A stretch of 64,000 nt of DNA from Pseudoalteromonas flavipulchra NCIMB 2033 = ATCC BAA-314 (GTDB lineage Bacteria; Pseudomonadota; Gammaproteobacteria; Enterobacterales; Alteromonadaceae): contig JWIH01000025.1 in the NCBI GenBank assembly GCA_000814665.1, positions 682,001 through 746,000 of the forward strand, given 5' to 3'. Below the pieces are notes generated by a model that saw only the letters and a program-made list of their open reading frames with translations, was not told the origin of the DNA and made no database searches. Positions 40,044-59,146 of this stretch are shown here, piece after piece. Each line of letters starts with the position of its first letter. Position 1 is the first letter of the stretch. The position numbers and the translations under genes are program-made.

Positions 40044-41348
40044 GTGGACTTTTTTTGGGTGTTGTTACTCATTAGCTTGAGTGCAGTTTTCGCGCTGTGT
40101 GAAATATCATTGGCAGCGGCACGCAAAGTTAAATTACAAACCTTATTTGACCTTGGTGATGTTAGAGCCAAGAAAGTATTGTATTTGCAGGCCAATGCGC
40201 ATCAGTTTTTTGCTGCGGTACAGGTGGTACTCAATGCCTTGGCAATTGTTGCGGGTATGATAGGCGAGTCGGTGTTTACCCCTTATGTATTGCAACTACT
40301 AAACTGGGTTGCAAGTTTTATGTTTGCCGATGTTGCGGCACATGCCTCGATGTTATTGCAAATATCCACTGTGGTGTCGTTTTTACTGATCACATCGTTA
40401 TTTGTATTGTTTGCTGATCTATTGCCAAAACGAATAGCCATGGTTATCCCTGAAACTATCGCGATGCGATTTATCCATCTAATGCTCGCCAGTGTATGGA
40501 TTTTTAAGCCTATTATCTGGCTATTTAACGTGTTCGCTGATTGGATAATAAAGCTATTCAATTTACCAAATGAACGTGACGAACAGGTAACCCGTGATGA
40601 TATTTATGCGGTGGTTGATCAAAGTGCTGAGCAGGGTGAGCTGTGCGAGCATGAGTACAATATCATTGGCAATGTGCTCGACCTTAACCAGACTAATATT
40701 ACCCAAGCGATGATCAATCGCGATGCAATCGTGTGGTTAGACATTCAAGAATCAGAAGAAAACCTGAGCACGTTAATTCAAGCGCACAGTTTTCAACAAT
40801 ATTTGCTGTGTGACGGCTCGCTCGACAAAGTGATAGCTGCACCTGAAGCCAAACAACTGCTTAGTAATATTTTGGCTAAAAAGCCGTTATTGGATGGTCA
40901 ACAACAAGAATTTCATAAGCCGGTCATTTTACTAGATACACTAAGTCTTTCTGACGCGCTAGATGGGCTGAAAAGTCATGAAAGCAACTGTGCGGTGGTG
41001 ATCAATGAATTCTCAACAGTGGTTGGGATGGTAACGTTATCCAGTATCTTGAATTTAATTGCACTGAAAGACGACCAAGCAATAGAAGCCCAATTTCGGC
41101 AAAAGGATAACACCCGATGGCTAGTACAGGGTGATATGTCGATTAAGGACTTTCAAGCTTCGGTGATTGAGTACGAGTTTGAACCGATTGAAGCCATAGA
41201 AACCTTAGCCGGTTTTGTGATCCACAGGCTAAAGCATTTTCCTGCCGAAGGAGAGTCGTTAGAAGTTGATGGCTTTAAGTTTAAAGTCATAGAAATTCAA
41301 GGATTAGCCATTAGGCAAATTGAAGTAACTAAAGAGCCCCAACTATAA
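40044..41348 (+). CDS. CNNM/CorC-family membrane protein with CBS domains (HlyC/CorC type)
   Basis: 434 residues with a GTG start, AGG ribosome-binding site 6-9 bases upstream. The N-terminal DUF21/CNNM domain has about four membrane helices (1-165). A CBS pair follows (about 200-330), then a CorC_HlyC transporter-associated domain (about 345-430, TRWLVQGDMSIKDF...FPAEGESLEVDGFKFKVIEI). This family includes Mg/Co efflux-type proteins and is often mislabelled hemolysin. Its last 6 bases overlap the end of the PTM thioesterase gene on the other strand, marking the left border of the biosynthetic operon. Confidence 0.9.
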   Translation: MDFFWVLLLISLSAVFALCEISLAAARKVKLQTLFDLGDVRAKKVLYLQANAHQFFAAVQVVLNALAIVAGMIGESVFTPYVLQLLNWVASFMFADVAAHASMLLQISTVVSFLLITSLFVLFADLLPKRIAMVIPETIAMRFIHLMLASVWIFKPIIWLFNVFADWIIKLFNLPNERDEQVTRDDIYAVVDQSAEQGELCEHEYNIIGNVLDLNQTNITQAMINRDAIVWLDIQESEENLSTLIQAHSFQQYLLCDGSLDKVIAAPEAKQLLSNILAKKPLLDGQQQEFHKPVILLDTLSLSDALDGLKSHESNCAVVINEFSTVVGMVTLSSILNLIALKDDQAIEAQFRQKDNTRWLVQGDMSIKDFQASVIEYEFEPIEAIETLAGFVIHRLKHFPAEGESLEVDGFKFKVIEIQGLAIRQIEVTKEPQL

Positions 41349-42134
41349 GGGGCTCAGTGTTTCTAACACCGCGTTAATTTCTTTTAGCACCAAAGCCGAG
41401 GAATCCTGCATAAAAAAGTGCCGACCAGGTATCGCTTTAGGCGTGATACCTTGTGTAAAGCAACTTTCCCAATGGTGCATATCCGTCCCCGTAGCTGCTT
41501 TATCCCGTGTACCATATAACACGGTTGCAGGCACGTCGAGTTTACAAGCCGAGTCGTATTGATAGGTCTCTCCCAGCTTAAAGTCCGCTTTTAACGTTGG
41601 CAGCATCAGTTGTTGCAGTTCGATATCATTGAGCAAAGCCGGTGGTAAACCGCCCATTAAATTTACCGCCGCAATGAACTTCTTATCGTCAAGAGTATGG
41701 TAGGGGGATTTTCTTATCGCATATTGTGGTGCCTTCCTTGCTGCAATAAACAGGTGTTTAACGATATTGCAGCTGCTATGTTGAAGTGCTAAGGCAAGCT
41801 CATACGCAATATAAGCGCCATTGCTATGACCGTAAAAAACGCTGGGTAATGGCGTTGCTTTGCTCAAAATAGATGCTATTGCTGCGACCAAGGTATGAAT
41901 ATTATCAATGGCAGCTTCATGACTTCGCTCCTTTCTCCCGGGTGCTTGGAGAGCATATAAAGCGACATCTTCAGGCAGTTTTCCTGCCCAGTTTTGATAA
42001 ACAGCTGCATCTGCGCCAGCAAAAGGAAAGCAAATGAGTTGTTTGCGAATGGTGTTAGGCTTATTGAGTAAGGAAAACCATTTGGAAGTAGAAAGCTGGT
42101 GGTTTATGCGCTCTTCTATTTTATTGGTAATCAC
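41343..42134 (-). CDS. Type II thioesterase of the PTM cluster
   Basis: 263 residues, alpha/beta hydrolase. ICFPFAGADAAVYQNWA at the N-terminus and the nucleophile elbow YGHSNGAYIAYELA (Ser104) are the signatures of external NRPS/PKS thioesterases. The acid may be Asp in YGTRDKAATG and the base His in IPGRHFFMQ. Such enzymes clear stalled or wrong acyl groups from carrier domains. It is the last gene of the eight-gene operon, overlapping the MATE gene by 4 bases. The carrier domains it would edit are the ACP and PCP of the large synthetase. Confidence 0.92.
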   Translation of the reverse strand: MITNKIEERINHQLSTSKWFSLLNKPNTIRKQLICFPFAGADAAVYQNWAGKLPEDVALYALQAPGRKERSHEAAIDNIHTLVAAIASILSKATPLPSVFYGHSNGAYIAYELALALQHSSCNIVKHLFIAARKAPQYAIRKSPYHTLDDKKFIAAVNLMGGLPPALLNDIELQQLMLPTLKADFKLGETYQYDSACKLDVPATVLYGTRDKAATGTDMHHWESCFTQGITPKAIPGRHFFMQDSSALVLKEINAVLETLSPL

Positions 42135-43522
42135 GATACCTCCTTCACGGAGTAATCGGTAGCACTTATTTTGCTAGCAATGAGCCCTAAATGATTTCTA
42201 GCTAAATACAAGCTTAAAGCAGCTTGAATAAGCACAGTTATCACAGACAGATGCCATAGTAACTCTACGGAAACTCGTTGTGTAAGTACGAGCCAGATAA
42301 CAGGTAAAACAAAAGTGAATAGTCTGGAAGCATTGCTTATAAGAGAGGGGAAAGTATTACCTGTAGCCTGAAATATTCCCGAGCAACTATAAACGATACC
42401 AGTGGCGATGAAGTTAAATGCAACAATCTCCAAAAAGTACTGCGTTTGATCGATGACATTTGCATCATTTGAGAAAGGAGTGGCAAGCAGGGAGCCGCAG
42501 TTTATTGCGATAACAGACATGAGCAACATAATGATTGAAACACAGCACATTACCCAAAAAAAAGCATATTTAAATCGTGCTAAGTTATTTGCACCGAAGT
42601 TTTGCCCTGCAACTGCAGGAAGCGAAAAGACAACAGCCATCATGGGTAGAGAAAGTCCTTGAATTATCTTTGAACCGATACTGAGTGCTGCTTGGACATC
42701 CATTGTGAGATCTTTGATTGCCCAAAACGTCAGTGAAATGTAGCAAAAGGTTAGCGTTAACTCGAGCCCAACGGGTCCGCCTATAACGAGTAGTTTTTTG
42801 ATGGTAGAACGATCAATTTTCCATGCTTTTAGATCAATTCTTAGATAACCATCTGCTTTTCTGAAATATAAAAGGGTAACGACAATAGCTAATATCATGG
42901 AAATTGAACTTGCAAGTCCAGCCCCCGAGATCCCCATGGAAGGGATGAAACCCCAACCGGTTATAAGTAAAGGGGATAGCAAGATATTGAGAAGGAGAGA
43001 TCCGAGCTGAGCAAACATCATAGGTTTAACTATTCCTATACCTCGCATCGCTGCTCCCAAAGTAATAAATAAAAATTGCATTGCGAGACAAGGAATAAAC
43101 CACTTAGTGTAAATCATAGCCGCTTCTCGAACTGCCAAGTCTGTAGTGGTATGTTGAAGGTAAAATTGGATCACAAATAGCCCAAAAGATAGCACCACCA
43201 ATCCTAATATGCAGGACAATAAAATCGCTTGATTGAAGATTGAGTTTGATTCAGCTTGGTTTTTCTTGCCCACGGAGTTCGCAATTAACGTAGCGGTTCC
43301 AACGTTTAAAATCTGGCTAATCGCAAAAATAAAAAAGAGTACATTGCCAACTAAGCTGAGAGCCGTCGTTTCTGCATCACCTAGCTGAGATACAAAATAG
43401 AGGTCGGTAAACATATAAAGTGTATGGACAAGCATACCGATAGCCAGTGGCAAGGCCATAGATATGATATGTTTTGGAATTGAGCCTTGAGTTAAATCTT
43501 TCACACTATCATCCAATATCAT
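42131..43522 (-). CDS. MATE-family multidrug exporter of the PTM cluster
   Basis: 463 residues from the ATG at 43522, which overlaps the hydroxylase stop by 14 bases. A TTG at 43570 would extend it, but family likeness begins at MILDDSVKDLTQGSIPKHI. It has 12 membrane helices with MATE features: LYMFTDLYFVSQLGD in helix 2 and PAVAGQNFGANNLARF near the middle. MATE proteins export small molecules with Na+ or H+. Being within the operon, it is the likely exporter or self-protection factor for the product. Confidence 0.9.
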   Translation of the reverse strand: MILDDSVKDLTQGSIPKHIISMALPLAIGMLVHTLYMFTDLYFVSQLGDAETTALSLVGNVLFFIFAISQILNVGTATLIANSVGKKNQAESNSIFNQAILLSCILGLVVLSFGLFVIQFYLQHTTTDLAVREAAMIYTKWFIPCLAMQFLFITLGAAMRGIGIVKPMMFAQLGSLLLNILLSPLLITGWGFIPSMGISGAGLASSISMILAIVVTLLYFRKADGYLRIDLKAWKIDRSTIKKLLVIGGPVGLELTLTFCYISLTFWAIKDLTMDVQAALSIGSKIIQGLSLPMMAVVFSLPAVAGQNFGANNLARFKYAFFWVMCCVSIIMLLMSVIAINCGSLLATPFSNDANVIDQTQYFLEIVAFNFIATGIVYSCSGIFQATGNTFPSLISNASRLFTFVLPVIWLVLTQRVSVELLWHLSVITVLIQAALSLYLARNHLGLIASKISATDYSVKEVS

Positions 43523-44474
43523 GGGTTGTTGATGGCACTTTTTTCGGCCTATTTGCCGTGCGTTTAGCAATATTGCTGTAATTTGGACGTTTGCCTTTTG
43601 AACTTATAAACCACTTAAAAGGGTGCAAAATACCAAGTCCAATGGCTGAAGGGGCAGGGAACAAATGTGGTTTAGTAACACCAATTTCCTGAGGTGAGCG
43701 CTCGGGGTGGTACTGGAAACTGTTAAAGGCTTTATCCCAAATGCTTAGTTCAGAGCCGTAGTTTCCAGCTTCTTGTAAGTTGGTGCTGTGGTGAAACCGG
43801 TGCAACTCGGGGGTTGCAATAAGATGATTTAGCCATCCCATTTTGACATTGATATTGGCGTGTATGAAGTACCCTTGCAATACCGTAAATTGACCGGCAA
43901 TAAATACGCTTTCGGCAGAAAAGCCTAAGAGTAGAAAGATAAGTTGAATAGTAACTGCGCTTATAATTACTTCAAATAGATGTACAACAACATTATTACT
44001 TGTTGTGACCTTGTTCGGAGTATGGTGAATACCATGAAAGCTCCACAAAGATAGGTACTTGTGTTGCAATCTATGAAGCCAATATCCCGTAAATGAACTA
44101 ACGAGAATTGCTAGTAACACATTTTGTGACAGTGTTAGTGCATTTTCTTGAGGTGCCAAATAAATGGAGATGGTGCGAATGATGCCCGCGCCAATCGCGC
44201 CATAAATCATCACTAAAATGAAATAACGTCCATCTCTTTGCCATTCCTTTTTGCTTGGATGCCAGCTATGTCGAAAAGGATTTATTCTTTCCATCACAAC
44301 GAAGTAAAAAATAACGAATAAAACGGTGAAAAAAGTAGTGATACCAAGTTCAAGTTTTTCTGTAATCGCAAGTAAACTAATTGCACTAACTATTAAGAAA
44401 ATGATTGGGTAGCAGAGTATACTCATAGCTTGAGTGACCCTATTTTTTGTCGCTAAGTTATGCATATTGCTCAT
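43509..44474 (-). CDS. Sterol desaturase/fatty acid hydroxylase-family enzyme (PTM C-hydroxylase candidate)
   Basis: About 321 residues; ATG codons at 44474 and 44465 are both plausible, and each overlaps the upstream gene. It is an integral membrane di-iron protein with several hydrophobic helices and the family His clusters: LHRLQHKYLSLWSFHGIHH (HxxxH and HxxHH types) and a later LHRFHHS. In the HSAF and related clusters a sterol-desaturase homolog hydroxylates C3 of the tetramate macrolactam, so the same step is proposed here. Its reductant is not defined; the flavodoxin of this operon is a candidate. Confidence 0.88.
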   Translation of the reverse strand: MSNMHNLATKNRVTQAMSILCYPIIFLIVSAISLLAITEKLELGITTFFTVLFVIFYFVVMERINPFRHSWHPSKKEWQRDGRYFILVMIYGAIGAGIIRTISIYLAPQENALTLSQNVLLAILVSSFTGYWLHRLQHKYLSLWSFHGIHHTPNKVTTSNNVVVHLFEVIISAVTIQLIFLLLGFSAESVFIAGQFTVLQGYFIHANINVKMGWLNHLIATPELHRFHHSTNLQEAGNYGSELSIWDKAFNSFQYHPERSPQEIGVTKPHLFPAPSAIGLGILHPFKWFISSKGKRPNYSNIAKRTANRPKKVPSTTHDIG

Positions 44475-46122
44475 TCTCTTTTGGTTGCGTTGCAGTGTTG
44501 GCATGGCTTAACAAGGGCGTGACTCGAAACCTTTTGCTATCTTGTAGACAAAGATATTGGGCTATATGTCTGCCGCTGGCCACGGCCTGAGCTACACCAT
44601 TTGATGTTCCCCAGTGACCGGAAAAATAGAAATTATCTAAGTGAGGTAAAGTGGGCCCATGTCTGTTGATGTATTTTTCAAACTCTTCAGAGTAAGGAGA
44701 GAATGGGTCCCAACCTAATACTGTGCCATTGTAGTTTTTGGTATATCGTTCACAAGTAAGCGGTGTGACAACATCTATAAACTCAACGTTGTTCTCTAAT
44801 TCCTCAAAGTGCTGAGAAAGAAATTGTAGTATCTTGGAGCCAACGTCTTTCTTGGCGACTTTATATTCTACAGAGCGTCTTCGACGGGTGTGACTATTTC
44901 GTCCAATACTGATATGTTCGGATTGAACACTGTTTGCGTTTAAATTTTGCCATGGTTGACTGTCAGTAAGGTAAGTAATGTAGAGCACTGACTTACCTTC
45001 AGGAGCCTGCTTTGGTAATAGAGTGCTTCTAACTTGTACAGCTATTCCGCCGTGGCTAATACCTATCAACTCTGATTTCAGTTTATCGTCTATTAGATAG
45101 GTTGAATAAGGATCATGATCAGTGTAATCCTTATTAACGGCAATAAATACGGCAACTAAGCTAGGAAAAATGATGCCCTTTGGATCGTTATGCAATTGGC
45201 TATACATTTTATCCATTACAGGGTGAGGGTAAGCACTCTTTAATAAGTGTTGTGTTGTGTTGTAACTATCGCTTGCGCTGATCACGTAATCTGCAAAGTG
45301 TTCTTGTCCGTTGCTTAGTCGTACCCCAATAGCTTTATTGTTTTCAACCAAAATTTGGTCGACTTTCGCTTTATAGTGGATTTTTCCACCTAGTTTTTCC
45401 ACTCTGCTAGCCAACTTTTTAGCCAATCCTAATGAGCCGACATCCGGAACTCCTATCGTTTTATCAGCGGCATTAGCAATATTAAAAGCGAAGGGCATAA
45501 CTGGAAAGTTCCCAAGTCTGTCATAAATTATCCAGTTAAGAGATTCAGCTAAAATAGGATTATTAAAGCGTTTTGAGTAGTCTTCTATACTGATAGACAT
45601 TGTGTTCATCAATGTTTTCATGTAGGGAAGCAACTTCCACATCATTTTAGCTTTTTCCCACCATGTCATGAGTCCAGTATTTTTTAGAAATGGAAAGTGG
45701 GGACTACAACCAGCTAGTTTTCTAATATAGCCGCAAAACTCTTTAATATGCTTGGTATCTTCAGGAAATTGTTCGATTAAACTTAACTCGAGCTTATCGG
45801 GATCTGCGTGGAAGGTAACTTTTTGTCCATCTGGAAAAATTACGGTGTTGAATGTTTTAATATGGTAGATTGAAACGTCATCGAGGCAACCAAGTTCATT
45901 CCAAATTAATGACATCTCATCTTTGTGACCTGTACCTTTTAACCAACTCAAGCACCAATCAAAAGTAAAGTCCTTTCGCTGCCAAGAAGTACAGCATCCT
46001 CCGGGAGTTTCATGTAGCTCAAATGTTGTCGTTTCGTAACCATTCATCTGGCTGTATGCTGCGGTGCTTAGACCTGACATGCCAGCTCCGATAATAATGA
46101 CTGATTTTGTATTTTTTGACAT
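44458..46122 (-). CDS. Phytoene-dehydrogenase-like FAD oxidoreductase, first copy (PTM ring formation candidate)
   Basis: 554 residues, with AAGGAA before the ATG. The Rossmann FAD motif is IIIGAGMSGLSTAAYSQMNGY (residues about 9-29), then ETPGGCCTSW. The C-terminal FAD segment is FYFSGHWGTSNGVAQAVASGRHIA. It belongs to the CrtI/CrtISO-like amine-oxidase superfamily. In PTM clusters such enzymes reductively cyclise the polyene chains to fused five-membered rings. It is clearly paralogous to the gene at 46754-48409 (shared GGCCTSW, FDWC-SWL, and C-terminal plan). There are no carotenoid genes nearby, so a carotenoid role is unlikely. Confidence 0.9.
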   Translation of the reverse strand: MSKNTKSVIIIGAGMSGLSTAAYSQMNGYETTTFELHETPGGCCTSWQRKDFTFDWCLSWLKGTGHKDEMSLIWNELGCLDDVSIYHIKTFNTVIFPDGQKVTFHADPDKLELSLIEQFPEDTKHIKEFCGYIRKLAGCSPHFPFLKNTGLMTWWEKAKMMWKLLPYMKTLMNTMSISIEDYSKRFNNPILAESLNWIIYDRLGNFPVMPFAFNIANAADKTIGVPDVGSLGLAKKLASRVEKLGGKIHYKAKVDQILVENNKAIGVRLSNGQEHFADYVISASDSYNTTQHLLKSAYPHPVMDKMYSQLHNDPKGIIFPSLVAVFIAVNKDYTDHDPYSTYLIDDKLKSELIGISHGGIAVQVRSTLLPKQAPEGKSVLYITYLTDSQPWQNLNANSVQSEHISIGRNSHTRRRRSVEYKVAKKDVGSKILQFLSQHFEELENNVEFIDVVTPLTCERYTKNYNGTVLGWDPFSPYSEEFEKYINRHGPTLPHLDNFYFSGHWGTSNGVAQAVASGRHIAQYLCLQDSKRFRVTPLLSHANTATQPKENEQYA

Positions 46123-46192
46123 TGTTATTCCTTGTCATATTCGGCGTGCATGTAATACAGCTAAGCATCGCCGAATAGTTATCTTGATGGCC

Positions 46193-46729
46193 TTAAGCTG
46201 TTTCGCAGGTAAGTTCTTGAAGCACGGCTGCAATCTCTTGGCACCAGTCGTTGATGCGCTGCTCGGTGAGTTCTGGTTGGTTATCATCATCAAGCGACAA
46301 GCCGAGAAACTCACTGCCGTCTTCATTTAGACCTTTCGACTTGGTGAAGTGGTAACCTGAATTTGGCCAGTAACCAATTGCAGTGGCGCCTTGTTCGGTT
46401 AGTTTATCGTGTAAGATGCCGATACCGTCTTGAAACCACTCGTCATAACCAACTTGATCGCCCTGACCGAAGATAGCCACGATTTTTCCGCTGAAATCCT
46501 GTTGTGCTAGGCTCTCCCAACGTGATTCCCAATCATCTTGTAAACCACCGTATTCCCACGTTGAAATCCCAAAAATCAAAAATTCATAGTTCTCGGTTAA
46601 GGTTAATTCGGTGTCTGCTATATCAAAGAGGTCGATGGTAAACTGGTTTAGGTTTGCTTTTATTAATTCTGCTGCGGCTTCAGTGTTACCTGTTGTGCTG
46701 CCATAAAATAGGCCAATACGAGTACTCAT
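46193..46729 (-). CDS. FldB-like long-chain flavodoxin in the PTM cluster
   Basis: 178 residues with AAGGAAA before the ATG. The FMN phosphate loop is GSTTGNTE near the N-terminus; STWEYGGLQDDWE and FGQGDQVGYDEWFQDGIG are the two isoalloxazine-binding segments. The sequence is closer to E. coli FldB than FldA in these places. It sits between the two FAD oxidoreductases, so it may pass electrons to one or both or to the di-iron hydroxylase. A flavodoxin is not a standard member of the PTM clusters I know. No flavodoxin reductase is in the operon; a housekeeping one would have to serve. Confidence 0.93.
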   Translation of the reverse strand: MSTRIGLFYGSTTGNTEAAAELIKANLNQFTIDLFDIADTELTLTENYEFLIFGISTWEYGGLQDDWESRWESLAQQDFSGKIVAIFGQGDQVGYDEWFQDGIGILHDKLTEQGATAIGYWPNSGYHFTKSKGLNEDGSEFLGLSLDDDNQPELTEQRINDWCQEIAAVLQELTCETA

Positions 46730-46753
46730 AATATTTCCTTTTAATTCTCTTGG

Positions 46754-48409
46754 TTAAGCAACATGCTGCTTTTGTTCGCTATAAGATTGAGGTTGGTGTA
46801 GTGGGTTTTCACCGATCCAAGCCTGAAACGGCTTGTCATCATCACGGCATACAAAGTGCAGAACATGTCTGCCTGTAGCTGCTGCACGGATCAATCCGCC
46901 GGTTGTCACCCAGTGACCAGCCATATAAAAGTTACTAAGGCCAGGCAGCCCCGTTGTCCCGTTGGCATTTATTTCGTCTTCTAAACTCTCACCACTTTCC
47001 AAAAATGGCTGCCACGCCAATACCGTTCCTTTGCTGTTGCGGGTATAGCGAACTTGGGTCAAAGGGGTCGCGATGTCGATATATTCGATATGCTCTTTTA
47101 GTCCCTCAAAATGAGTGGAGAGCTTATCGATTATAAATTCACCTAAGGTCTTTTTAGCGAGGCGATATTGAACGCTACGCTTGACCCTAGTGTGATGGCG
47201 TTTAGTCGCCGTTGTTTCTTGGAAATTATTTAATTCAGCCCACGGCTCATAAGTTGAGAAGTAGGTGATATAAAGCACGGATTTGCCTTCTGGGGCGATA
47301 TGCGGGTAGTGTACATTGCGCACCTGCACATTGATCCCCGGGTGCGTCATACCAGGGCAGTGGACCAGATCTTGTTGGTCTAACAAGTGGGTGCGGCAAT
47401 GAGGTTGATGGGTATAGTCCTTGTTTACCCCCAAAAATACAGAGACGTATCCTGGGAACATTTGACCATCGGTCTCCCTTAACTCGTCGTATAGCTTGTC
47501 TAACACAGGGCTGGAATACTGGCCATCAAGCATGTTTTTTACCACATCCGTACCGTCACATGCTGAGATCACGATATCGGCATACATTTTTTGGCCGTCG
47601 CTGAGTTCAACACCGATGGCTTTGTTGTCTTCGACCAAGATCTTGTGTACTCGGGTGTTGTATATGATGTCACCCCCCAACTTTTTATATCTTGCTTCCA
47701 TCGATTGCGCGAGACCTAACGAGCCACCCTCGGGCACACCTGCATTTTTTTTCGCCGCGCAGGCCAGATTAAAATAGAAAGGTAATAGCGGGAAACTGGG
47801 ATGTTGCTCATAAAAGATAACGTTAAATGCCTTTTGCAGCAGCGGATGTGAAAACTTAGCGGCAAAGTCCGACATCAATGTCGCCATGGATTTGCGGATT
47901 AAATTAAATTTTTTGATGAACGGCCACATCATCTTTAGCTTTTGCCAGCGTGACATAATGCCCACTGGCACTAGAAAGGGATAAGCGTCTATCATTTTGA
48001 CGAATTCACGAATGCCATCGCAAAATTGTTTGATGAGTTTCTTGTCTGCGGGAGAAATGCTTAAAAGGTGGGCTTCGAGTTTATCTGGATCTGCGTAGAA
48101 ATGTACTTCTCCTAATTCCTCATCAATAACTGAATTGAAGATTTCAAAGTCTCTAATTTCTTTATCATCCAGCGCACCTAACTCTTGCCAGATTTGATTC
48201 ATGCCGTTGCCTGAGCCACTACCCAGTAGCCAGCTAATACACCAATCAAAAATATAATCTCTACGTTCCCACGATGTGCAGCAGCCGCCGGGAATATCGT
48301 GCAGCTCTAAGATCACGCTCTTGTAGCCGTTCATTTGTGCATAGCTACCGGTTGAGAGTCCACCCATACCGGCACCTATGATGATCATAGATTGTCTTTG
48401 TGTGGTCAT
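46754..48409 (-). CDS. Phytoene-dehydrogenase-like FAD oxidoreductase, second copy (PTM ring formation candidate)
   Basis: 551 residues from the ATG at 48409, which has AAGGAC at good spacing; the longer frame from 48442 lacks one. FAD motif IIIGAGMGGLSTGSYAQMNGY, then DIPGGCCTSWERRDYIFDWC. The C-terminal segment FYMAGHWVTTGGLIRAAATGRHV replaces the GTSNG of its paralog with VTTGG, a difference near the flavin that could mark a different ring closure. It follows the large synthetase by 56 bases, across a strong hairpin. PTM clusters for bicyclic products typically carry two such enzymes. Confidence 0.9.
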   Translation of the reverse strand: MTTQRQSMIIIGAGMGGLSTGSYAQMNGYKSVILELHDIPGGCCTSWERRDYIFDWCISWLLGSGSGNGMNQIWQELGALDDKEIRDFEIFNSVIDEELGEVHFYADPDKLEAHLLSISPADKKLIKQFCDGIREFVKMIDAYPFLVPVGIMSRWQKLKMMWPFIKKFNLIRKSMATLMSDFAAKFSHPLLQKAFNVIFYEQHPSFPLLPFYFNLACAAKKNAGVPEGGSLGLAQSMEARYKKLGGDIIYNTRVHKILVEDNKAIGVELSDGQKMYADIVISACDGTDVVKNMLDGQYSSPVLDKLYDELRETDGQMFPGYVSVFLGVNKDYTHQPHCRTHLLDQQDLVHCPGMTHPGINVQVRNVHYPHIAPEGKSVLYITYFSTYEPWAELNNFQETTATKRHHTRVKRSVQYRLAKKTLGEFIIDKLSTHFEGLKEHIEYIDIATPLTQVRYTRNSKGTVLAWQPFLESGESLEDEINANGTTGLPGLSNFYMAGHWVTTGGLIRAAATGRHVLHFVCRDDDKPFQAWIGENPLHQPQSYSEQKQHVA

Positions 48410-48435
48410 AATTCTGTCCTTAAAGTCGTTAGAAA

Positions 48436-48459: not shown

Positions 48460-48465
48460 GAGCTG

Positions 48466-51400: not shown

Positions 51401-54400
51401 GCGTTGAGGGTAATGTCTTTCACCTGCGCTAAAAGCGAAGTAAAGTGCGTTTCAGGATCAAACCTTGCGCATAGCGGTAGGGGATTCACAAAGTAACCAT
51501 AGACGTTTGAAAACTCTGGATTTGTACGACCGGCCACGGGACTGCCAATAATGATCTCATCCTGCTGAGTATATTTATGCATGACCGCGTAATAGATGCT
51601 AAGCAACGCCATGAACATGGTGGACCCTTGTGCCTTTGCAAGGGTATTCAATGAAGACGTGAGGGCTTTATCCAACTCAAAATGATATGAATCACCAACG
51701 TTGGTGAGTACCGCAGGTCTAGGTTTGTCGGTTGCAAGGTCTAATACGGGGATCTCTGCAGGTAAGTGATTCTGCCAAAACTTATAGTTTGCCGCGCCGC
51801 GTGGAGAGTGAACAAAGCGTGTTTCCCAATCGACAAATTTTTCATAGCTTGACGTTATCTCGCTGAGTGCTAACGGTTCACTTTTTGCAAAATGCGCATA
51901 CAGTGACTGCATTTCATCGATAAACATGTAATTTGACCATGCATCTGAGATGATGTGATAAATCGTCACTGCAAAGTAGTAGCTTTGATCATTCTGCTTA
52001 TACAAATACAGTCTAAACAGCGGGTCGTGCTCAAGGTCGAAAGGCTGTTCATTGCCTGCAATCATCATAGGTTGAATATCTTCCCAAGACTTACCATGTA
52101 CATCAATGACTTGCAGTGCATCCTCGCGATGAGTCCAAACTCTTTGATAGGGTTCGCCATCTTTAAAGAAGAAGTTTGTTCTTAACATTGGGTGGCGAGC
52201 AACTACAGCACTAAGGGCTTTTTTCAGCGCGTCGATATTCAGGGCACTAGGAATGTGCATCGCGCCGCCGATATTGTAGGAAGCGCTACTTGGGTTGAGT
52301 TGATTGATAAACCAAATCGCTTTTTGTCCATAGGAAAGTGGGAATTCAGCTTCCACATTGGCATCAGATACGATAATAGAGTTAACCTTGGTCTCGGAAA
52401 CCGGCTGAACCTGCGATGTTTCTGTGGTTATGACTTCAAAGCCAAGCGACTCAACGAGTTTGTCATTAAGCTCTATACTTAATTCGTTGATAGATGCACC
52501 ACTTAGTAGGCGTACAATCGTTAGGGTTTCACCAAAATGGGTGGTGATCTTATTTCTCAGTTCTGTCGCCATAATAGAGTCAATACCGAGATTACCGAGC
52601 GATAGATCTAATTCCACTTGCTCTCGTTTACAGCGTAATACTTGGCTGACAGCATTAGCGAGATGATCGGCAACAAGCGGTAACCGAAGCGCGCTGTCTG
52701 TTTGCTGGTATAAAGGAGCAAACTCTTGCTCTTGGTGGCTTTGCGTGTCGTTTTCTTGGGTAGCCAAGTGACTAAATAAACTCGGCTTTCCTGCATACCA
52801 ATTGGTTACTTTGGACCAATCGGCGTCACACACTAAGAGTTGAGGTTGCTCTTGGTCTAGAATACGTTCAAGCACAGCCATCCCCGCACTTGGTGAGATG
52901 CAGTTCATGCCCCTTTGGTTCTTGTAATGTTCGGCGAGACCCAACTCTTCAATCATACCAATAGCCCAAGGACCCCAGTTGATACTCAGCGCCGGAAGAC
53001 CCTGATTGCGACGGTAGTGGGCGAGGGCATCTAAGAAAGCATTGCCAGAAGCATAGTTTGTTTGTCCTGCGGTAGTGACTTGAGCCGCGACAGAGGAGAA
53101 GAGTACAAAGTGTTCGAGGTCAACTTTACTGAGTGCTTTGTGAAGCATCAACGCACCAATCGCTTTGGTGTCAAACACACCGTCAAATGCTCTGGTATCC
53201 ATATTGCCAAGTAAGGTGTCATTGACGATACCAGCACAGAAAAATAATCCGTTGATCGGTGCTTGTGCACTTAGATGATAAGACTCAAGGGCCGCGTGAA
53301 GTTCACGCTCTCGAGTTAAGTCTGTCTGCCATAACGAGACATTAACGCCCTGACTCTCAAGGTGTTGAATAAACCGAACGCGATCATAGTTATGGTCGCT
53401 TGAGGTAAGTTCTGACCAACTCTTACGCTCAGGTAATTGACTCCTACCAAGCAAAATGAGGTTTCGTGCACCTCTATCGACGAGTAGCTGACAAACTAAC
53501 TGACCGATTGAACCAAATGCACCCGTGATCAATTGTGCTTTATGGCTTTGCACGCGAGTTGGGAAGGCGGGTTGAAGTGACGTTGCCTGCTCTAAACGAG
53601 CAACATAGGCCTGATTTTCCCTAAAAGCAACTTCCCCTTCTTGGCGGTCACTTAACAATCTAGCTGTGATATGTTCGGCATCATTTTGGCCATCAACATC
53701 GATGAGGCCACCCCAATTATCAACCAGTTCTTGCTGTGCGAGCACTCGGCTAAATCCTGTTAACGAAGCGGACATCACCGCGGTAAGTTGCTCACTATTA
53801 ACGAGGCTGGCGTTGCGTGTTACCACGTAAAGCGGGAATTTACAGTCTTGTTCAATTACGGTTTTGGCTAGATTTAACAATGAATGTAGCGACTGACGTT
53901 TTTCTCTTTGCAGTTGAGCAAGGGTCAGTGATTCTATCGCGCTGTTATCTAGACTAAAGCAATGCACAACGCCACGAATTTCTTGTTTGCCCAAAGTCTC
54001 GATAAGTTGTGACAGGTGATCCCGTGAATCGGGAACTAGCCATGCATGACAATGGTCTCTGTCGATATCAAAGTATTCTCCAGATTTAACGATACAGCTA
54101 GAGTGGCCAAGCTTTGCTAAACGGTCAGCTACCTGTTCGGCTGTTCCTGATTGATCTGCGAGGAGCACCCAACGACCCGATGTGTCAGTTTCTTGTATTT
54201 CCTGATCAGGCTCTGCAAGCCAATTGACTTGGTAAAGCCAGCTATCTATGGTTCTGGTGGTGATCCCACTTGCAGCGGAGTCAACGCTTTGTGCAATAAA
54301 GTTTTTGATAACACCAAAGACTTGACCAGACTCATCACAGAGGTATAAATCACCGACCGTTTTTTCGTCGTCACGATGAGTGATTTGGGTATAACACCAA

Positions 54401-57400
54401 AAGTCAGTATTGTTCTGCCCGCAAAGCAGGATCTGCTCTAGCATCACTGGTAAGCGGATAGAGAATTGCTGAGCATTAGCACTTGCAAGCTCTGTAAATA
54501 CTAACGTCTGGAAGCACGCATCTAGTAGACTTGGGTGTAGGGTAAATTGTGTTGTTCGCTCAAGTTGAGTAGGCCAAGAGATTTTGGCAAGCACGCCGTT
54601 GTCTGTTGCCCAGATCTGTTCAATGGCTCTAAAACATGGACCATATTCGTAACCAAACTCTTTTAGGTGTGCATAAAACTCATCGTGCTGCTGCGCGCTG
54701 GTAGCGGCACTACGAATAGCATTGAGATCAATAGGCTCAGCAAGGTTGGCGCTTTGTACTCGGCGGATTGTCCCTTGAACATGGCGGGTCGTTTTACCAT
54801 CTTCGAGGCTTACCACTTTAAAATTCGGTTCATCATGGTGCAAAATGAATTGCACATTGGGAGCGTGTTCATTATTCAAAAATAACGCTTTATCGATGAC
54901 AAAGTGGTCGAGTGCATAGCTGCCATTGCCCCAAGTCTCTTTGGCTGCAGCATACGCCATTTCAATAAAGCCAGCAGCGGGGAAGAGGGTATTGCCTTGG
55001 ATTTGATGACAGCTTAAAAAACTATCGCGATTTGTGTCGGTTACCGCGTTCCAAACATGTTCAGCTTCACTGCGTTTACGGCCCAAGAAAGCATGGTTAC
55101 TTTGCCCTAAACGCACTTGATTAAAGTACTCAGGCTCGGTCCAAAAGCGTTCTTGCAAGAACGGGTAAGTTGGCAACGTAGTGAACTTACCTCGACCATT
55201 TATGGCTGACCAATTTAATTCAAAGCCTAAACCAAACAGTTGAGCTACGGCGTGGTAATAGGTGTGTTGCTCGTCGGATTTACGGCGCATACTCGAGACG
55301 ACAACGCTTGAGCAACTTTGTTCTTCTGCGGTTTCGGCAATAGATGCGCCAAGCACAGGGTGTGGACCTAGTTCCAAAAATGCTTGGTAACCTTGTTGTA
55401 ATATTGCACGGGTGGCATCAACAAAACGCACGGCTTGGCGGACGTTGAGCCACCAGTAGTTAGCATCAAGCTCAGGCCCCGCTGCAAGTGTTCCTGTTAC
55501 CGTTGAATACAATGGAGTATGTGCGGTGTTAGCTTGAATACCAGCTAAACACTCGAGCAATTCGGTCTTAATCGGTTCCATAAACTGGCTGTGATAGGGC
55601 ACTTCAACGCGGAGAAACTTGCAAAACACACCAGCTTCGCTCAGTTGTGTTTCGATACTGTGTAACGCATTTTCTTCACCAGCTAGGGTGACAGAGTTTG
55701 GACTGTTTACCGCTGCAATTTCAACTTGGTCGTTGAGATAAGGTGTGACGTCACTGTCAGAGAGTCCTACCGCCATCATTTTACCTGTGTTGCGGCATTG
55801 ATGCTGTAAACGGCTACGATGGACTACGATGGTGCAAGCATCTTTTAATGAGTAGACCCCGGCTTCATAAAATGCCGCCGCTTCACCGGTACTATGGCCA
55901 ACAATGACATCAGGGGAAATGCCGTGTTGACGCCACATTGCTGCAAGTGCAACTTGCACGGCAAAGTTTGCCGTTTGAGCAAGCCAAGTATATTGCATGT
56001 TTGACGCTGATTCATCGGCAAGCATTTCATCAACCAATGACCAATCTGTAAGCGCTGACATATAGCTATCACACTCATCGATCATCGCTTTAAAAGTTGG
56101 CTCTGATTGGTACAGCTCACGGCCCATTGCCCACCATTGTGGCCCCATGCCGGTGAAAACCCACACGAGTTTTTGCTCATCTTTTTTCAGTGTGCGCAGA
56201 GTGTTGGCCACAGCAAATTCAGCATCATGACTTAATGTTTGTAGTTGTTGTTGCAGATCCTCTGCATTTTTGAAACAAATTGCATGACGATATTGGTGAT
56301 GTTCACGGCGCTCACCCAGTGTGTAGATAATATCACTGAGTGATGCATCGCTGTCTTGCAAAAATTCATTATGCGCTTTGGCAAAGCGATGGATCCCGTG
56401 TTGATCTCTTGCACTCAATGGATAAAGTTTTAGGCCATTCTCATTTGCTGGAGGTATTGATGGTACTTCTGGCGCAACGTATTCTTGAATAACCGCGTGG
56501 GAATTGGTTCCACCGAAACCAAAGGAGTTTACCCCCGCAACGGCTAAACCTTCATGCTTAGGCCAAGGTGTAAGTTTAGTGGGGATCTCATACGGCGCGT
56601 TGGCGTAATCAATCTTAGGATTAATTGATTTTAAGTGTAAATGCGGTGGGATCTGTTTGTTTTGAATGGCTTTGACCGCCTTGAACAAACCAGCCATACC
56701 AGCGGCTGCCTCGGTATGGCCAATATTGGTTTTTACTGAGCCAATGTAGCATTTATCGTCTTGATCACGGTTGATCCCAAGTAATGTTCCAACTGACTTT
56801 GCTTCAATAGGGTCGCCAACAGGTGTGCCTGTGCCGTGCATTTCAATGTACTGCACTTTACCGGGGTCAATATTCGCTTTGGCATAGGTTTCCTTCATCA
56901 AGCGCAATTGGGCATCCCCATTCGGCACCGTGATCCCTTGTGTTTTACCGTCTTGGTTTACACCGGTGGCTAAGATCACCGCATGAATTGGGTCGCCATC
57001 CTTAATCGCATCATCTAAGCGCTTGAGCACAACGACGCCAGCGCCTTCAGCGCGGACATAACCGTTTGCGGAGTCGTCAAAAGCATGAGAAAAACCAGTC
57101 GGAGATAAGAAACCGCCTTTAGACTCGGATACTGTATATTGTGGTGCTAAATGTAATAGCACACCACCTGCGAGTGCCATATTACTTGCCCCGGTCTGTA
57201 GGCTTTTACAGGCCATATCTAATGCGACAATAGAGGAGCTACAAGCAGTATCGATGGACATGCTGGGGCCATTAAAGTCAAAAGTATGAGAGATGCGATT
57301 AGAAAGCATCGTCATCATAACACCCGTCGCAGTGTGAGCATCAATGTTGTCAAAATCTGGGTTAGTGAATTGCATGATTTTATAATCAAGCGTAAACCCA

Positions 57401-57807
57401 CCCATGAAAACGCCGACCGACTCTCCTGCGAGTTCAGATGGCTTTTGCCCACCATCTTCCAACGCTTCCCAAGTTACCTCCAGCAGTTTACGTTGTTGAG
57501 GGTCCATAAACTCGGCTTCACGAGGCGTGATCCCAAAAAATGCTGGATCAAACTTATCGATATCATCGATATAGCCACCCCATTTTGAGCTCAACTTGCC
57601 TTTATTCGCTTTTACAGACGAATAATGAGTATCGATATTCCATCTCGATTCTGGGGTTTCTATGATGCAATCGACACCATGTTTAATATTTTCCCAAAAC
57701 AATTCAGGACTATTCGCGTGACCTGGGAAACGACAACCCATGCCAATAATTGCTATCGGTAGCGTGTCGTTTGCGGGGCGAACAGAGCGTTCATTTTCGA
57801 TTGCCAT
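48466..57807 (-). CDS. Hybrid iterative PKS-NRPS, polycyclic tetramate macrolactam synthetase
   Basis: 3113 residues; AAGGA precedes the ATG. Domains: KS 15-440 (C189 in DTACSSS, H324, H364); AT 545-860 (GHSTGE, S639; VPYHS at 736-740); DH 905-1180 (H934 in HQIQGNTLFP, D1096 in HPSLLDACFQ); KR 1420-1620 (TGAFGSIG, Y1585, N1589); ACP (S1744 in GIDS); C 1820-2260 (YHIISDAW, H1951); A 2285-2785; PCP (S2833 in GGNS); TE 2890-3110 (S2953 in GYSLGG). No ER. The A pocket residues D2483 V2484 G2487 E2526 I2553 G2555 S2580 I2588 D2589 K2778 spell the ornithine code as I recall it. One PKS module must work iteratively to make two polyene chains, joined to both ornithine amines, with TE-linked tetramate release, as in HSAF and ikarugamycin. 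Confidence 0.95.
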   Translation of the reverse strand: MAIENERSVRPANDTLPIAIIGMGCRFPGHANSPELFWENIKHGVDCIIETPESRWNIDTHYSSVKANKGKLSSKWGGYIDDIDKFDPAFFGITPREAEFMDPQQRKLLEVTWEALEDGGQKPSELAGESVGVFMGGFTLDYKIMQFTNPDFDNIDAHTATGVMMTMLSNRISHTFDFNGPSMSIDTACSSSIVALDMACKSLQTGASNMALAGGVLLHLAPQYTVSESKGGFLSPTGFSHAFDDSANGYVRAEGAGVVVLKRLDDAIKDGDPIHAVILATGVNQDGKTQGITVPNGDAQLRLMKETYAKANIDPGKVQYIEMHGTGTPVGDPIEAKSVGTLLGINRDQDDKCYIGSVKTNIGHTEAAAGMAGLFKAVKAIQNKQIPPHLHLKSINPKIDYANAPYEIPTKLTPWPKHEGLAVAGVNSFGFGGTNSHAVIQEYVAPEVPSIPPANENGLKLYPLSARDQHGIHRFAKAHNEFLQDSDASLSDIIYTLGERREHHQYRHAICFKNAEDLQQQLQTLSHDAEFAVANTLRTLKKDEQKLVWVFTGMGPQWWAMGRELYQSEPTFKAMIDECDSYMSALTDWSLVDEMLADESASNMQYTWLAQTANFAVQVALAAMWRQHGISPDVIVGHSTGEAAAFYEAGVYSLKDACTIVVHRSRLQHQCRNTGKMMAVGLSDSDVTPYLNDQVEIAAVNSPNSVTLAGEENALHSIETQLSEAGVFCKFLRVEVPYHSQFMEPIKTELLECLAGIQANTAHTPLYSTVTGTLAAGPELDANYWWLNVRQAVRFVDATRAILQQGYQAFLELGPHPVLGASIAETAEEQSCSSVVVSSMRRKSDEQHTYYHAVAQLFGLGFELNWSAINGRGKFTTLPTYPFLQERFWTEPEYFNQVRLGQSNHAFLGRKRSEAEHVWNAVTDTNRDSFLSCHQIQGNTLFPAAGFIEMAYAAAKETWGNGSYALDHFVIDKALFLNNEHAPNVQFILHHDEPNFKVVSLEDGKTTRHVQGTIRRVQSANLAEPIDLNAIRSAATSAQQHDEFYAHLKEFGYEYGPCFRAIEQIWATDNGVLAKISWPTQLERTTQFTLHPSLLDACFQTLVFTELASANAQQFSIRLPVMLEQILLCGQNNTDFWCYTQITHRDDEKTVGDLYLCDESGQVFGVIKNFIAQSVDSAASGITTRTIDSWLYQVNWLAEPDQEIQETDTSGRWVLLADQSGTAEQVADRLAKLGHSSCIVKSGEYFDIDRDHCHAWLVPDSRDHLSQLIETLGKQEIRGVVHCFSLDNSAIESLTLAQLQREKRQSLHSLLNLAKTVIEQDCKFPLYVVTRNASLVNSEQLTAVMSASLTGFSRVLAQQELVDNWGGLIDVDGQNDAEHITARLLSDRQEGEVAFRENQAYVARLEQATSLQPAFPTRVQSHKAQLITGAFGSIGQLVCQLLVDRGARNLILLGRSQLPERKSWSELTSSDHNYDRVRFIQHLESQGVNVSLWQTDLTRERELHAALESYHLSAQAPINGLFFCAGIVNDTLLGNMDTRAFDGVFDTKAIGALMLHKALSKVDLEHFVLFSSVAAQVTTAGQTNYASGNAFLDALAHYRRNQGLPALSINWGPWAIGMIEELGLAEHYKNQRGMNCISPSAGMAVLERILDQEQPQLLVCDADWSKVTNWYAGKPSLFSHLATQENDTQSHQEQEFAPLYQQTDSALRLPLVADHLANAVSQVLRCKREQVELDLSLGNLGIDSIMATELRNKITTHFGETLTIVRLLSGASINELSIELNDKLVESLGFEVITTETSQVQPVSETKVNSIIVSDANVEAEFPLSYGQKAIWFINQLNPSSASYNIGGAMHIPSALNIDALKKALSAVVARHPMLRTNFFFKDGEPYQRVWTHREDALQVIDVHGKSWEDIQPMMIAGNEQPFDLEHDPLFRLYLYKQNDQSYYFAVTIYHIISDAWSNYMFIDEMQSLYAHFAKSEPLALSEITSSYEKFVDWETRFVHSPRGAANYKFWQNHLPAEIPVLDLATDKPRPAVLTNVGDSYHFELDKALTSSLNTLAKAQGSTMFMALLSIYYAVMHKYTQQDEIIIGSPVAGRTNPEFSNVYGYFVNPLPLCARFDPETHFTSLLAQVKDITLNALDHQEYPFALLVDKLGIEHDASRSTVFQVMFVMLNHRVEQSHMDENNVAYYKGFPMQFMELPEEEGQFDITLSTYEENGVFKGTLKYNTDLFETETIAQLARDYIALTRMVVDSPNRPLSELALTSPDAIDALATFAESQQNAPALPTLVSQIENAAQHSPELPALSIACGTNAGELAATLSYCELNGQANQLARLINSQLDNQPSQTIALHFEKSIALVVACIATLKAGHHFVVIDPQQPNERKQLLLEQSRCALLLCEEALTSDHPTLLWESFQSQRDEISEHNLALNHQPNDIAYIVFTSGSTGTPKAVQVSHQNWATIAVDWLAQFDLAPTSHHLQLASPTFDVFCGDLARAFYNAKHLVLCPKNMMLNMPVLYDLIETQQIDTVEFVPSVVRNLILFAKQSQVGFTSLRRVIVGSEQWQIAEYRALKGLLQEDARLFSSYGTSEATIDSSFFEESEQYLETSATVPIGKPFNATQLILLDKQNQLVSSNAVGEIAIAGQGVSLGYLNNPEKNASQFIQLPVSENCTLRVYKTGDLGKWDKHGNLHILQRIDNQVKIRGHRVELGEIESSINQIPGIKRSYVKGIEVHGQTQLIAYFESELAVGTEFVLEQLENQLPSYMVPSKLVAIDQFPLLSNGKIDAAALPQVELAELVRAFVAPATLFEQQLAEIWSNMLGQKSISLHDDFFALGGNSLYLIELMVRIQSAFSIKMEVNQLFRFTTLHGMASAIEDVVTGKETGASPYLIFNAGQSTRLFALPPAGGYSIVYKAFADALPNTEVISFNYLESDTKVSDYADQIMQIQPHGPYTLFGYSLGGNLAFEIAKELESRGQRVGDVVILDSFRITETVKMREQDFAHFEQELKAHFARHTGSNTVHQHTLAQARDYIDWCYEVKNLGQVHAKLHFIVEQNAHAEAARLTSWDAASDAEVITYQGVGKHEEMLMPDMMQAGNGAIMQSILQDTQSRAVIATNVE

Positions 57808-57841
57808 AATGCATTCCTTGAAGTTATCTATTTTCTGTTAA

Positions 57842-59146
57842 TTAGCGAAGTTGCAGCAGTTCATCTTGAGTGGTTGAGTGAACATGAAGCGTAGGGTAGA
57901 GCAGGCGTTTATAGATGCCGTAGTAAAGTTGTTGAAGCTGGATTAAGTCGGATGTTGTTGTGTGTTCATCTATTTGATGAATGGTTTTGTTCACCAATCC
58001 AAGTTCTAATACTGAGGTTGATATTTCAGCAATAAAGCGACCATCCGATGTTCCCCCTGCGGTCGATAGTTTTGGTGTGAAATGACATTGGTTGTTGATT
58101 TCATCGCAGACGATAGCGAGGGATGGAGAAGGGATCTCATCATTATTTACGCAGTAATAGGGTTTACAGGAGTTATTGGTCGTTAATGCATAATTGAGTG
58201 TATGTTTTTCGATGGTTTCTCTGACCAGCTGGACCAATTCATATTCGTTGTATGCGGGTGTATAACGGATATTAAAATTTAGCTGACATTGGCTTGGAAT
58301 GATGTTGTCAACAAAATCGCCAGAATTTACATGAGTGAATTGTAGTGTGGTCGAGTCAAAGTTATCACAGTGCTTAGGCCAATCTACTGACAATAATGCT
58401 TGCATAATATTTTGTGCTAGATGGATGGCATTGGTCGCTTTTTGAGGGTAAGCCACATGTCCACTTTTACCATGTAAATTAATGGTAAAAGACAAAGCAC
58501 CACGGCGACCGACTTTCAGTGTATCTGCTACTTGCGCTTCAGAGCTTGGCTCTCCGACCAAGGTAAAATCAAATGTGATACGCTGCTGTTTTAAAAACTG
58601 AGTGATCCGCTTGGTTCCGTGTTCCGCTTCGCCTTCCTCGTCGCTAGTGAGTAGCAACCAAAGCTCTTTTTCCGGTATTCCAAAGTCTGTCACTAGAGCC
58701 TCAATTGCACAGAAAAAGGCGGCAATAGCGCCTTTCATATCAACAATACCTCTGGCGAAGAGACAGCCATTGTGTTCTGTCAGCTTAAAAGGGTTAAACT
58801 GCCAATCTTGTGTACTTCCGGCTGGTACTACATCGGTATGACCAAGAAAAGCAAACCTAGCGTCACTATTGTTACCTATGCTCGCTATTAAGTTACTCAC
58901 ATCACGAACAGGCAAGTGCTTGATTGAAAAACCCAAAGTCCGCAGCTCTTGTGCTAACCACAGTTGGCACCCAACATCATCCGGCGTGATTGATTTGAAT
59001 GCGACTAACTGCCGTGCAATGTCAACAACGCGGTGGCTGGCATGTTCATCCTCTTCAACACCTTGAAACTCCTCATGTAGAGCCTCGATATCCTCTAGCG
59101 CTTCAGAGACAAGTTCGTAACAAGTGTTTGAAGAAAAGCCATTCAT
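57842..59146 (-). CDS. DapE-like M20 amidohydrolase, first gene of PTM operon
   Basis: 434 residues. M20 di-zinc ligands are visible: GHTDVVP (H103, D105), ARGIVDMKGA (D136, bridging), TSDEEGEAEHGT (E170/E171), VGEPSS (E199) and TIHQIDEH near the C-terminus. GGTSDGRFIAE and LGLVNKTIHQIDE are close to succinyl-diaminopimelate desuccinylase rather than general peptidases. It has an extra acidic N-terminal segment of about 38 residues before the normal DapE start. It lies 34 bases before the synthetase on the same strand, so it is in the operon. ArgE, N-acetylornithine deacetylase, is a close relative, so it might supply or free ornithine or deacylate a protected product; this is inference. Confidence 0.88.
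   Translation of the reverse strand: MNGFSSNTCYELVSEALEDIEALHEEFQGVEEDEHASHRVVDIARQLVAFKSITPDDVGCQLWLAQELRTLGFSIKHLPVRDVSNLIASIGNNSDARFAFLGHTDVVPAGSTQDWQFNPFKLTEHNGCLFARGIVDMKGAIAAFFCAIEALVTDFGIPEKELWLLLTSDEEGEAEHGTKRITQFLKQQRITFDFTLVGEPSSEAQVADTLKVGRRGALSFTINLHGKSGHVAYPQKATNAIHLAQNIMQALLSVDWPKHCDNFDSTTLQFTHVNSGDFVDNIIPSQCQLNFNIRYTPAYNEYELVQLVRETIEKHTLNYALTTNNSCKPYYCVNNDEIPSPSLAIVCDEINNQCHFTPKLSTAGGTSDGRFIAEISTSVLELGLVNKTIHQIDEHTTTSDLIQLQQLYYGIYKRLLYPTLHVHSTTQDELLQLR

Follow-up and report, generated by a model that had tools for sequence, protein, structure and literature searches.

The window analysed here, a stretch of 64,000 nucleotides from Pseudoalteromonas flavipulchra NCIMB 2033 = ATCC BAA-314, contains an operon of the polycyclic tetramate macrolactam (PTM) type. 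Eight open frames run along the minus strand from 59146 to 41343, with short gaps or overlaps between neighbors, and encode an M20/DapE-like hydrolase, a synthetase, two FAD cyclases (OX1 and OX2), a flavodoxin, a sterol-desaturase-type hydroxylase (SD), a MATE exporter, and a type II thioesterase. An earlier note had described a complete eight-gene PTM operon on one strand at 41343..59146; the frames were found at those coordinates with the Pfam domains that it listed, and the operon is confirmed as real and complete. The inserted unit is slightly larger than the interval given there, because it includes an upstream leader. The unit and its genes are as follows.

41339..59861, minus strand: whole inserted unit, the operon plus an AT-rich leader at 59147-59861 (from empty sites in loci L150, L151, L152, and L153)
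57842..59146, minus strand: M20 metallohydrolase, DapE-like, first gene of the operon (Pfam M20; two NCBIfam DapE models above cut-off)
48466..57807, minus strand: iterative polyketide synthase-nonribosomal peptide synthetase (PKS-NRPS), KS-AT-DH-KR-ACP-C-A-PCP-TE, 3113 aa; iteration by analogy (Pfam order, motifs, A pocket, tree)
46754..48442, minus strand: OX1, FAD-dependent, phytoene-dehydrogenase-like cyclase of the PtmB2/OX3 clade, predicted to form the first five-membered ring (trees)
46193..46729, minus strand: long-chain flavodoxin of the FldB type, encoded between OX1 and OX2 and proposed to carry electrons to the hydroxylase, the cyclases, or both (Pfam/NCBIfam)
44458..46122, minus strand: OX2, second FAD cyclase, apparently of a third clade and not of the PtmB1 type; first gene of the exchanged block (trees, approximately unbiased [AU] test)
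43509..44504, minus strand: SD, sterol-desaturase/fatty-acid-hydroxylase family, predicted C-3 hydroxylase; second block gene; start codon uncertain (Pfam FA_hydroxylase)
42131..43570, minus strand: MATE-family exporter; third block gene; start codon uncertain (Pfam MatE; NCBIfam matE above cut-off)
41343..42134, minus strand: stand-alone type II thioesterase, its first ~16 codons within the exchanged block (Pfam Thioesterase, junction alignment)

A PTM synthetase within an inserted unit

In the 3113-aa protein, Pfam domains follow one another in the order ketoacyl-synthase, acyltransferase, PS-DH, KR, ACP, Condensation, AMP-binding, PP-binding, and Thioesterase, which is the single-protein plan of PTM synthetases. 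The motifs looked for in every one of these domains were intact in an alignment with 16 PTM synthetases, several of which are cut by a contig or locus edge. The adenylation pocket matched that of the other PTM synthetases, with D235, V236, G239, E278, and D331 invariant in all 15 rows that reach them (17 aligned), S at position 322 in 14 rows and T in one (Colwellia), and I at position 330 in 13 rows and V in two; under a numbering that we presume to apply, we take this pocket to be of the ornithine type.

Searches pointed to the same family. With the C-terminal 1544 residues as the tblastn query, plasmid records yielded three PTM loci at 98-99% coverage and 39-41% identity, the next best match reaching 31% over 82%. 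We also assembled 83 PTM loci, comprising 80 kept out of 225 genome loci encoding OX relatives and the three plasmid loci, and the synthetase was matched at 1e-8 in 81 of them. These loci extend up to 10 kb from the cyclase (in the plasmid loci, up to 15 kb from the matched region), some less far, and absences reported below hold for the stretches searched. The nearest full-length matches outside the genus were PTM loci; best matches outside the PTM clade, which the earlier note had set against its own alteramide-like identification, were thus not what was found, and alteramide A from Pseudoalteromonas is already published. Within the genus, the same C-terminal query recurred at no less than 98% identity in 6 of 108 genomes, this one included, and the operon gene set accompanies it in the other five, with all eight gene families present in Colwellia as well. 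A chance arrangement is therefore rejected, as is an ordinary nonribosomal peptide synthetase (NRPS), unrelated NRPS having scored far lower.

The extent of the unit follows from genomes that lack it. The paeA-like flank is present in 18 of the 108 genus genomes (E 1e-100), so that 12 have the flank without the cluster. The four of these 12 that were examined (G045, G018, G046, and G039) all showed an empty site, with 167, 167, 168, and 249 bases, respectively, between the equivalents of window positions 41338 and 59862, where the flanks join; the inserted unit is therefore placed at 41339-59861. On one side it borders on the paeA-like gene (3' end), on the other on a gene at 59875-60189 on the plus strand, which encodes a small, secreted-looking protein of ~104 aa, starts just outside the insertion point, and has DNA matches at the empty site in the same four relatives. 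The eight listed frames are the only ones of at least 120 aa inside the unit, and no regulator gene of that size was found there. A tRNA or structured RNA at the insertion site was considered and rejected, as ARAGORN reported no tRNA in the window and Rfam no structured RNA at gathering score between 38000 and 62000. No direct or inverted repeat of at least 9 bases was common to the two ends (150 bases on each side of 41338 and 59862). A promoter scan gave three sites versus 5.1 in shuffled sequence, and one terminator versus 0.9, with no clear promoter.

A marine branch and its second cyclase

The synthetase tree places the operon in a deep marine branch of PTM operons, common to Colwellia. 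In this tree of 14 sequences, from which three truncated ones had been dropped and other truncated rows kept, and which was midpoint rooted, the window grouped with Colwellia psychrerythraea GAB14E, a Methylococcaceae metagenome-assembled genome (MAG), and a gammaproteobacterial MAG, and the other ten formed a second group. Synthetase identity was 49-66% within the marine group and 53-75% among five others tabulated, compared with 40-44% between groups. The condensation-domain motif begins with Y in the four marine rows (YHI.SDAW, with SDAR in one MAG) versus HHI.SDA(I/V) elsewhere, the Streptomyces clusters included. Accessory genes followed the same division: the flavodoxin was matched in 4 of the 83 PTM loci and the DapE-like gene, thioesterase, and MATE in three each, all of them in the marine branch. 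In the Colwellia GAB14E locus (L048/L145/L146), all eight gene families are again encoded on a single strand, with a synthetase 65%, an OX1 77%, and an OX2 58% identical to those of the window; the locus differs in the reversed order of thioesterase and MATE, and no match to the window's flanking genes was found in its 39 kb. The Methylococcaceae MAG locus (L147) gave no DapE-like match in 17 kb; two similar frames of 537-558 aa lie upstream of its synthetase on the same strand (2169-5455) and look, by eye, like export ABC proteins.

OX1 and OX2 both carry Amino_oxidase/NAD_binding_8 domains and are CrtI/CrtISO-like (Pfam, NCBIfam), that is, they are adjacent phytoene dehydrogenase (PhyDH)-like cyclases as in other PTM clusters. 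Cyclases were extracted from 84 loci, of which 26 entered a first tree (57 cyclases) and 18 a tree with outgroups; PtmB1 and PtmB2 identities were assigned to locus enzymes by gene order rather than through the PtmB1 and PtmB2 sequences themselves. OX1 grouped with the enzymes that are the second PhyDH in Streptomyces and Lysobacter clusters, with support of 98/91 in the first tree and 99/95 in the outgroup tree, and is the orthologue of PtmB2/OX3, enzymes that, in an excerpt of PMC6950151, close the first five-membered ring. No orthologue of PtmB1 or Lysobacter OX2, the second-ring enzymes, was found among the window's cyclases. Instead, the window's OX2 formed a clade of its own with the Colwellia and MAG enzymes (100/99), which joined the PtmB2/OX3 side (95/95; 57-cyclase tree). 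A recent tandem copy of OX1 was rejected as its origin, the two being 47% identical and in separate clades.

OX2 could be a true orthologue of PtmB1 and Lysobacter OX2 that diverged together with the marine branch, its third clade being an effect of rooting or long branches. Three clades without an outgroup have a single unrooted arrangement, so the root depends on distant outgroups, and the synthetases are split between marine and canonical groups equally deeply. However, when six outgroup rows were added (one out of 369 genomes of the class, the other five taken from plasmid records), OX2 joined the PtmB2/OX3 group with 100/96 support, the AU test rejected a union of OX2 with PtmB1 (p-AU 0.0057, a value weakened by the group having been named after the first tree was seen), and tblastn identity of the window's OX2 was 41-45% to PtmB2-type versus 32-37% to PtmB1-type enzymes in the loci printed. 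In 299 genomes of the phylum, a search for further outgroups at E 1e-30 matched the window's own genome alone. The tree also contains long branches (L049_b, L099_b, and the outgroups), and such joins can be false. On balance we regard PtmB1 orthology as unlikely, and OX2 appears to be a second cyclase of another lineage, with the caveats of branch length and rooting.

This affects how the product can be predicted. From two FAD cyclases without an alcohol dehydrogenase, the earlier note had deduced a 5-5 ring system; the cyclase count holds and the product may be right, but the deduction assumes a Streptomyces-like pair of PtmB2 and PtmB1, and with an OX2 unlike PtmB1 it is weakened, as the second ring cannot be read by orthology.

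Outside the PTM clusters, Staphylococcus epidermidis plasmid pIVK83 (L156, 2992-4494) carries an FAD oxidoreductase between genes of short-chain dehydrogenase/PKS-like and condensation-domain types that is a distant relative (31%) of PTM cyclases.

Two alleles of the OX2-SD-MATE block

The other five synthetase-carrying genomes of the genus (G044, G075, G083, G072, and G071) have a synthetase, OX1, and flavodoxin 96.6-99.5% identical in protein sequence to those of the window. OX2, SD, and MATE depart from this pattern, being 97-98% identical to G044 versus 58-61% (OX2), 57-59% (SD), and 54-56% (MATE) identical to the remaining four. Immediately past the stop codon of the flavodoxin, DNA identity to those four drops from 92-96% to 53-69%; it rises again ~16 codons inside the thioesterase gene, for which matches in the other-allele strains start at residue 17. 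A 10-kb stretch outside the cluster was 97, 96, 96, 96, and 95% identical to G044, G075, G072, G071, and G083, respectively. We located breakpoints by maximum chi-square, with 500 permutations, on sites at which the window is identical to either G044 or G075 but not to both. The block and the two breakpoints are as follows.

42085..46192, minus strand: exchanged block OX2-SD-MATE, one of two alleles (windowed identity, junction alignments, GC)
47507..47509, no strand: recombination breakpoint inside OX1, G075-like upstream and G044-like downstream (maximum chi-square 88.7, 0/500 permutations)
58696..58718, no strand: second recombination breakpoint, inside the DapE-like gene (maximum chi-square 75.0, 0/500 permutations)

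At the breakpoint in the DapE-like gene, G044 was matched at 37/40 sites upstream versus 102/398 downstream, and at the one in OX1, at 65/354 sites before versus 37/44 after, up to the block. These two switches in site pattern make the window a mosaic, in which a G044-like segment runs from the final part of OX1 through the flavodoxin and across the block. The identity profile and its sharp edges indicate that close relatives have exchanged OX2-SD-MATE as a block by homologous recombination in the conserved flanks.

As judged from divergence and substitution rates, both alleles are old and maintained. In the block genes, the nonsynonymous rate (dN) between the window and G075 amounts to 0.32-0.38, with a saturated synonymous rate (dS). 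Comparisons within one allele type gave a dN/dS of 0.08-0.22 for OX2, SD, and MATE, low values that argue for maintenance of both alleles; the remaining five operon genes had 0.02-0.16 (these rates and the GC comparison are for five tabulated genomes, G071 being left out). GC content is 39.7-40.6% in the window-type allele, 41.5-45.0% in the other, and 43.2-47.0% in the remaining operon genes, so the window's block more probably came from a lower-GC source. The block could alternatively be an old replacement in the lineage of G075, G072, G071, and G083 rather than an import into the lineage of the window and G044, an explanation we find doubtful. The OX2 tree unites the two alleles with Colwellia outside (99/94). 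In favor of the replacement, the other allele's SD and MATE are nearer Colwellia (63 and 57%) than are those of the window allele (55 and 50%), so that both alleles have relatives elsewhere. Set against this are the GC content of the window's block, lower than in the remaining operon genes, to which the other allele comes closer, and the switch within OX1, where shortly ahead of the block the window stops resembling G075 and starts resembling G044, which suggests that it was the window that received a G044-like segment.

What the exchange does to the product can be read in two ways. The alleles may be equivalent, with all six strains making the same alteramide and the exchange being neutral or driven by something else, such as the exporter; we give this an even chance. 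Gene set and order are identical in both alleles, and both keep the SD histidine boxes. Moreover, at 147 positions conserved in 163 other PTM cyclase rows (two rows of up to 450 aa and the L032 row were left out), the window's OX2 has 35 changes and the other allele 40, of which 28 positions, including part of GGLIRAA near the C terminus, are changed in both. Equivalence is harder to reconcile with a divergence as large as that between the Pseudoalteromonas and Colwellia OX2 (58%) and with an exporter that travels together with two product-shaping enzymes. Alternatively, and somewhat more tentatively, the block may be a chemotype-switch cassette: a constant synthetase and first-ring cyclase would supply a single shared intermediate to a 4.1-kb block whose swap by homologous recombination changes the second-ring cyclase, hydroxylase, and matching exporter to give different PTMs in sister species, the marine second-ring cyclase having an origin separate from Streptomyces/Lysobacter PtmB1.

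A literature search found, among the matches listed, no account of the exchanged block or the flavodoxin, although an earlier description of the two alleles is possible; for a recombining cassette, the ten papers listed of 1,181 were mostly unrelated, and no paper in the literature searched combined "tetramate macrolactam" with "flavodoxin."

Two further observations concern the compared strains. The gene for an EamA-type transporter upstream of the operon (window 60482-61399) has two tandem matches in G044 (L043) and none in the G071 stretch. In the G071 draft (L039/L040), the matches to an Lrp-type regulator and to the thioesterase are each in pieces, through either damage or sequencing error.

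Product, proposed pathway, and significance

Taken together, these data make it very likely that the window's complete PTM operon represents a marine gammaproteobacterial type of its own, probably making an alteramide-type antifungal, alteramide A or a near relative, and that its OX2-SD-MATE block is one of two old alleles moved between close species. Excerpts of the literature provide the closest comparison. Alteramide A, reported at m/z 511.28, was obtained from P. elyakovii M044, in whose cluster there are an SD, an FAD oxidoreductase, and a PKS-NRPS (PMC13101523); citations name P. piscicida S2040 and coral strain OT59 as further producers of alteramide A, P. flavipulchra JG1 has been described as having a set of genes of the PTM type, and cyclised alteramides were obtained from P. 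flavipulchra S16 after promoter replacement (PMC12819058). Likened through the published M044 gene list, with which it agrees, the window's operon is most probably the same cluster as those of these producers of its genus. By analogy, a 5-5 alteramide stays the likeliest guess for this strain, this being what other Pseudoalteromonas with a cluster of this kind produce. As a cluster it is thus already known; what sets it apart is its second cyclase, its accessory genes, and, most of all, the finishing block with its two alleles. The source on M044 also reports alteramide A masses for Flocculibacter collagenilyticus M601 without an annotated cluster (PMC13101523, section 8), and the divergence of the marine PTM branch might be why that cluster was missed.

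Several points weigh against this reading. The synthetase tree has no outgroup. A search of 395 family genomes at E 1e-80 gave three with an OX2 match (the window's own, G075, and Colwellia; the sample was without the other four carriers of the operon), and no donor of the window-type block beyond G044 was found. Past the block, on the thioesterase and paeA-like side, G044 was matched at 51/92 informative sites, a split that locates no breakpoint there. The DapE-like gene aligns over its full length with a solved DapE and two NCBIfam models name it DapE, and the roles given below to it and to the flavodoxin are guesses from context. Finally, because OX2 and the hydroxylase lie in the exchanged block, the product of this strain cannot be assumed from that of alteramide producers, which may carry either allele. 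A degenerate or silent cluster without a product, by comparison, is very improbable. The alteramide genes of P. flavipulchra S16 were indeed silent until the promoter was replaced, according to an excerpt of PMC12819058, but the five tabulated genomes have every one of the eight frames open, dN/dS is 0.02-0.22 in pairs with finite dS, and other strains are reported, in published excerpts, to produce alteramide A.

Comparison with better-known systems suggests a pathway. Published excerpts describe PTM synthetases joining two polyketide chains to ornithine to give a common polyene tetramate precursor, a second PhyDH closing the next ring in a step coupled to C-14 oxidation, and SD adding the C-3 hydroxyl, aided in Lysobacter by a ferredoxin reductase. 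By analogy, the window's synthetase would link two polyene chains to ornithine, OX1 would close the first five-membered ring and OX2 the second, and SD would add the C-3 hydroxyl. SD has the features of the enzyme in C-3 hydroxylated PTMs (FA_hydroxylase 93.8 bits; boxes HRLQH, HGIHH, and HRFHH) and is 39-43% identical to the SD adjoining the three plasmid PTM synthetases. The type II thioesterase may edit, and MATE would export the finished product. The flavodoxin may feed electrons to SD, in the place of the Lysobacter ferredoxin reductase, or keep a cyclase flavin reduced, and the DapE-like enzyme may be an N-acyl hydrolase that frees an acylated amino acid such as ornithine; neither proposal has a direct precedent. 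Exchange of the block would then swap the finishing enzymes and the exporter together on a constant assembly line.

Both canonical groups share the synthetase plan and differ from the window in tailoring. Lysobacter clusters for heat-stable antifungal factor (HSAF)/dihydromaltophilin, which in excerpts of the literature also yield alteramides, likewise have SD and PhyDH cyclases, and the L. antibioticus synthetase is 41% identical to that of the window; the 5/5 system of L. enzymogenes is described there as relying on three oxidoreductases, with OX4 and a ferredoxin reductase present in addition, whereas the window has two cyclases, the second of another clade, a flavodoxin, no alcohol dehydrogenase, and an SD downstream of the synthetase. 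The Streptomyces pactamide, frontalamide, and ikarugamycin clusters resemble the window in the A pocket and in a PtmB2 counterpart of OX1 (51-54% identity, four loci). They differ in that the window has no PtmB1 orthologue, no PtmC/IkaC-type alcohol dehydrogenase or P450 among its eight genes, and an SD downstream rather than upstream.

Housekeeping function is unlikely for the DapE-like gene, as the genome has, at another place, a copy that shares the GRRGS residues of solved DapE. Three more matches to the operon enzyme were found in its own genome, two of them DapE-like, and it is 48% identical to the Colwellia operon gene; it has GRRGA and VDN versus GRRGS and AGN in the genome's DapE-type copy. 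A stand-alone paralogue (G000:C2:217802-218917, L148) has the same GRRGA/VDN residues as the operon enzyme, and the neighborhoods of two stand-alone paralogues gave no hint of a substrate.

Elsewhere in the genome, another large ketosynthase-containing frame (3331 aa) and NRPS-like frames on contigs C1 and C24 were seen, G000:C10:91500-92216 being among the places noted; the strain probably has further natural-product clusters besides the PTM operon.

In sum, the ring patterns of PTMs are commonly predicted from how many cyclase genes a cluster has and of which type, and operons of the marine branch appear to arrive at the alteramide class through a second cyclase other than the known second-ring enzyme, which would make this counting rule unreliable for marine clusters. 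OX2 would thereby provide an independent enzyme for comparing second-ring formation. The two alleles of the finishing block in near-identical operons constitute a natural experiment, in which a difference in product would be traceable to three genes, and the joint movement of exporter and tailoring enzymes, if true, would be evidence that export is fitted to the finished molecule.

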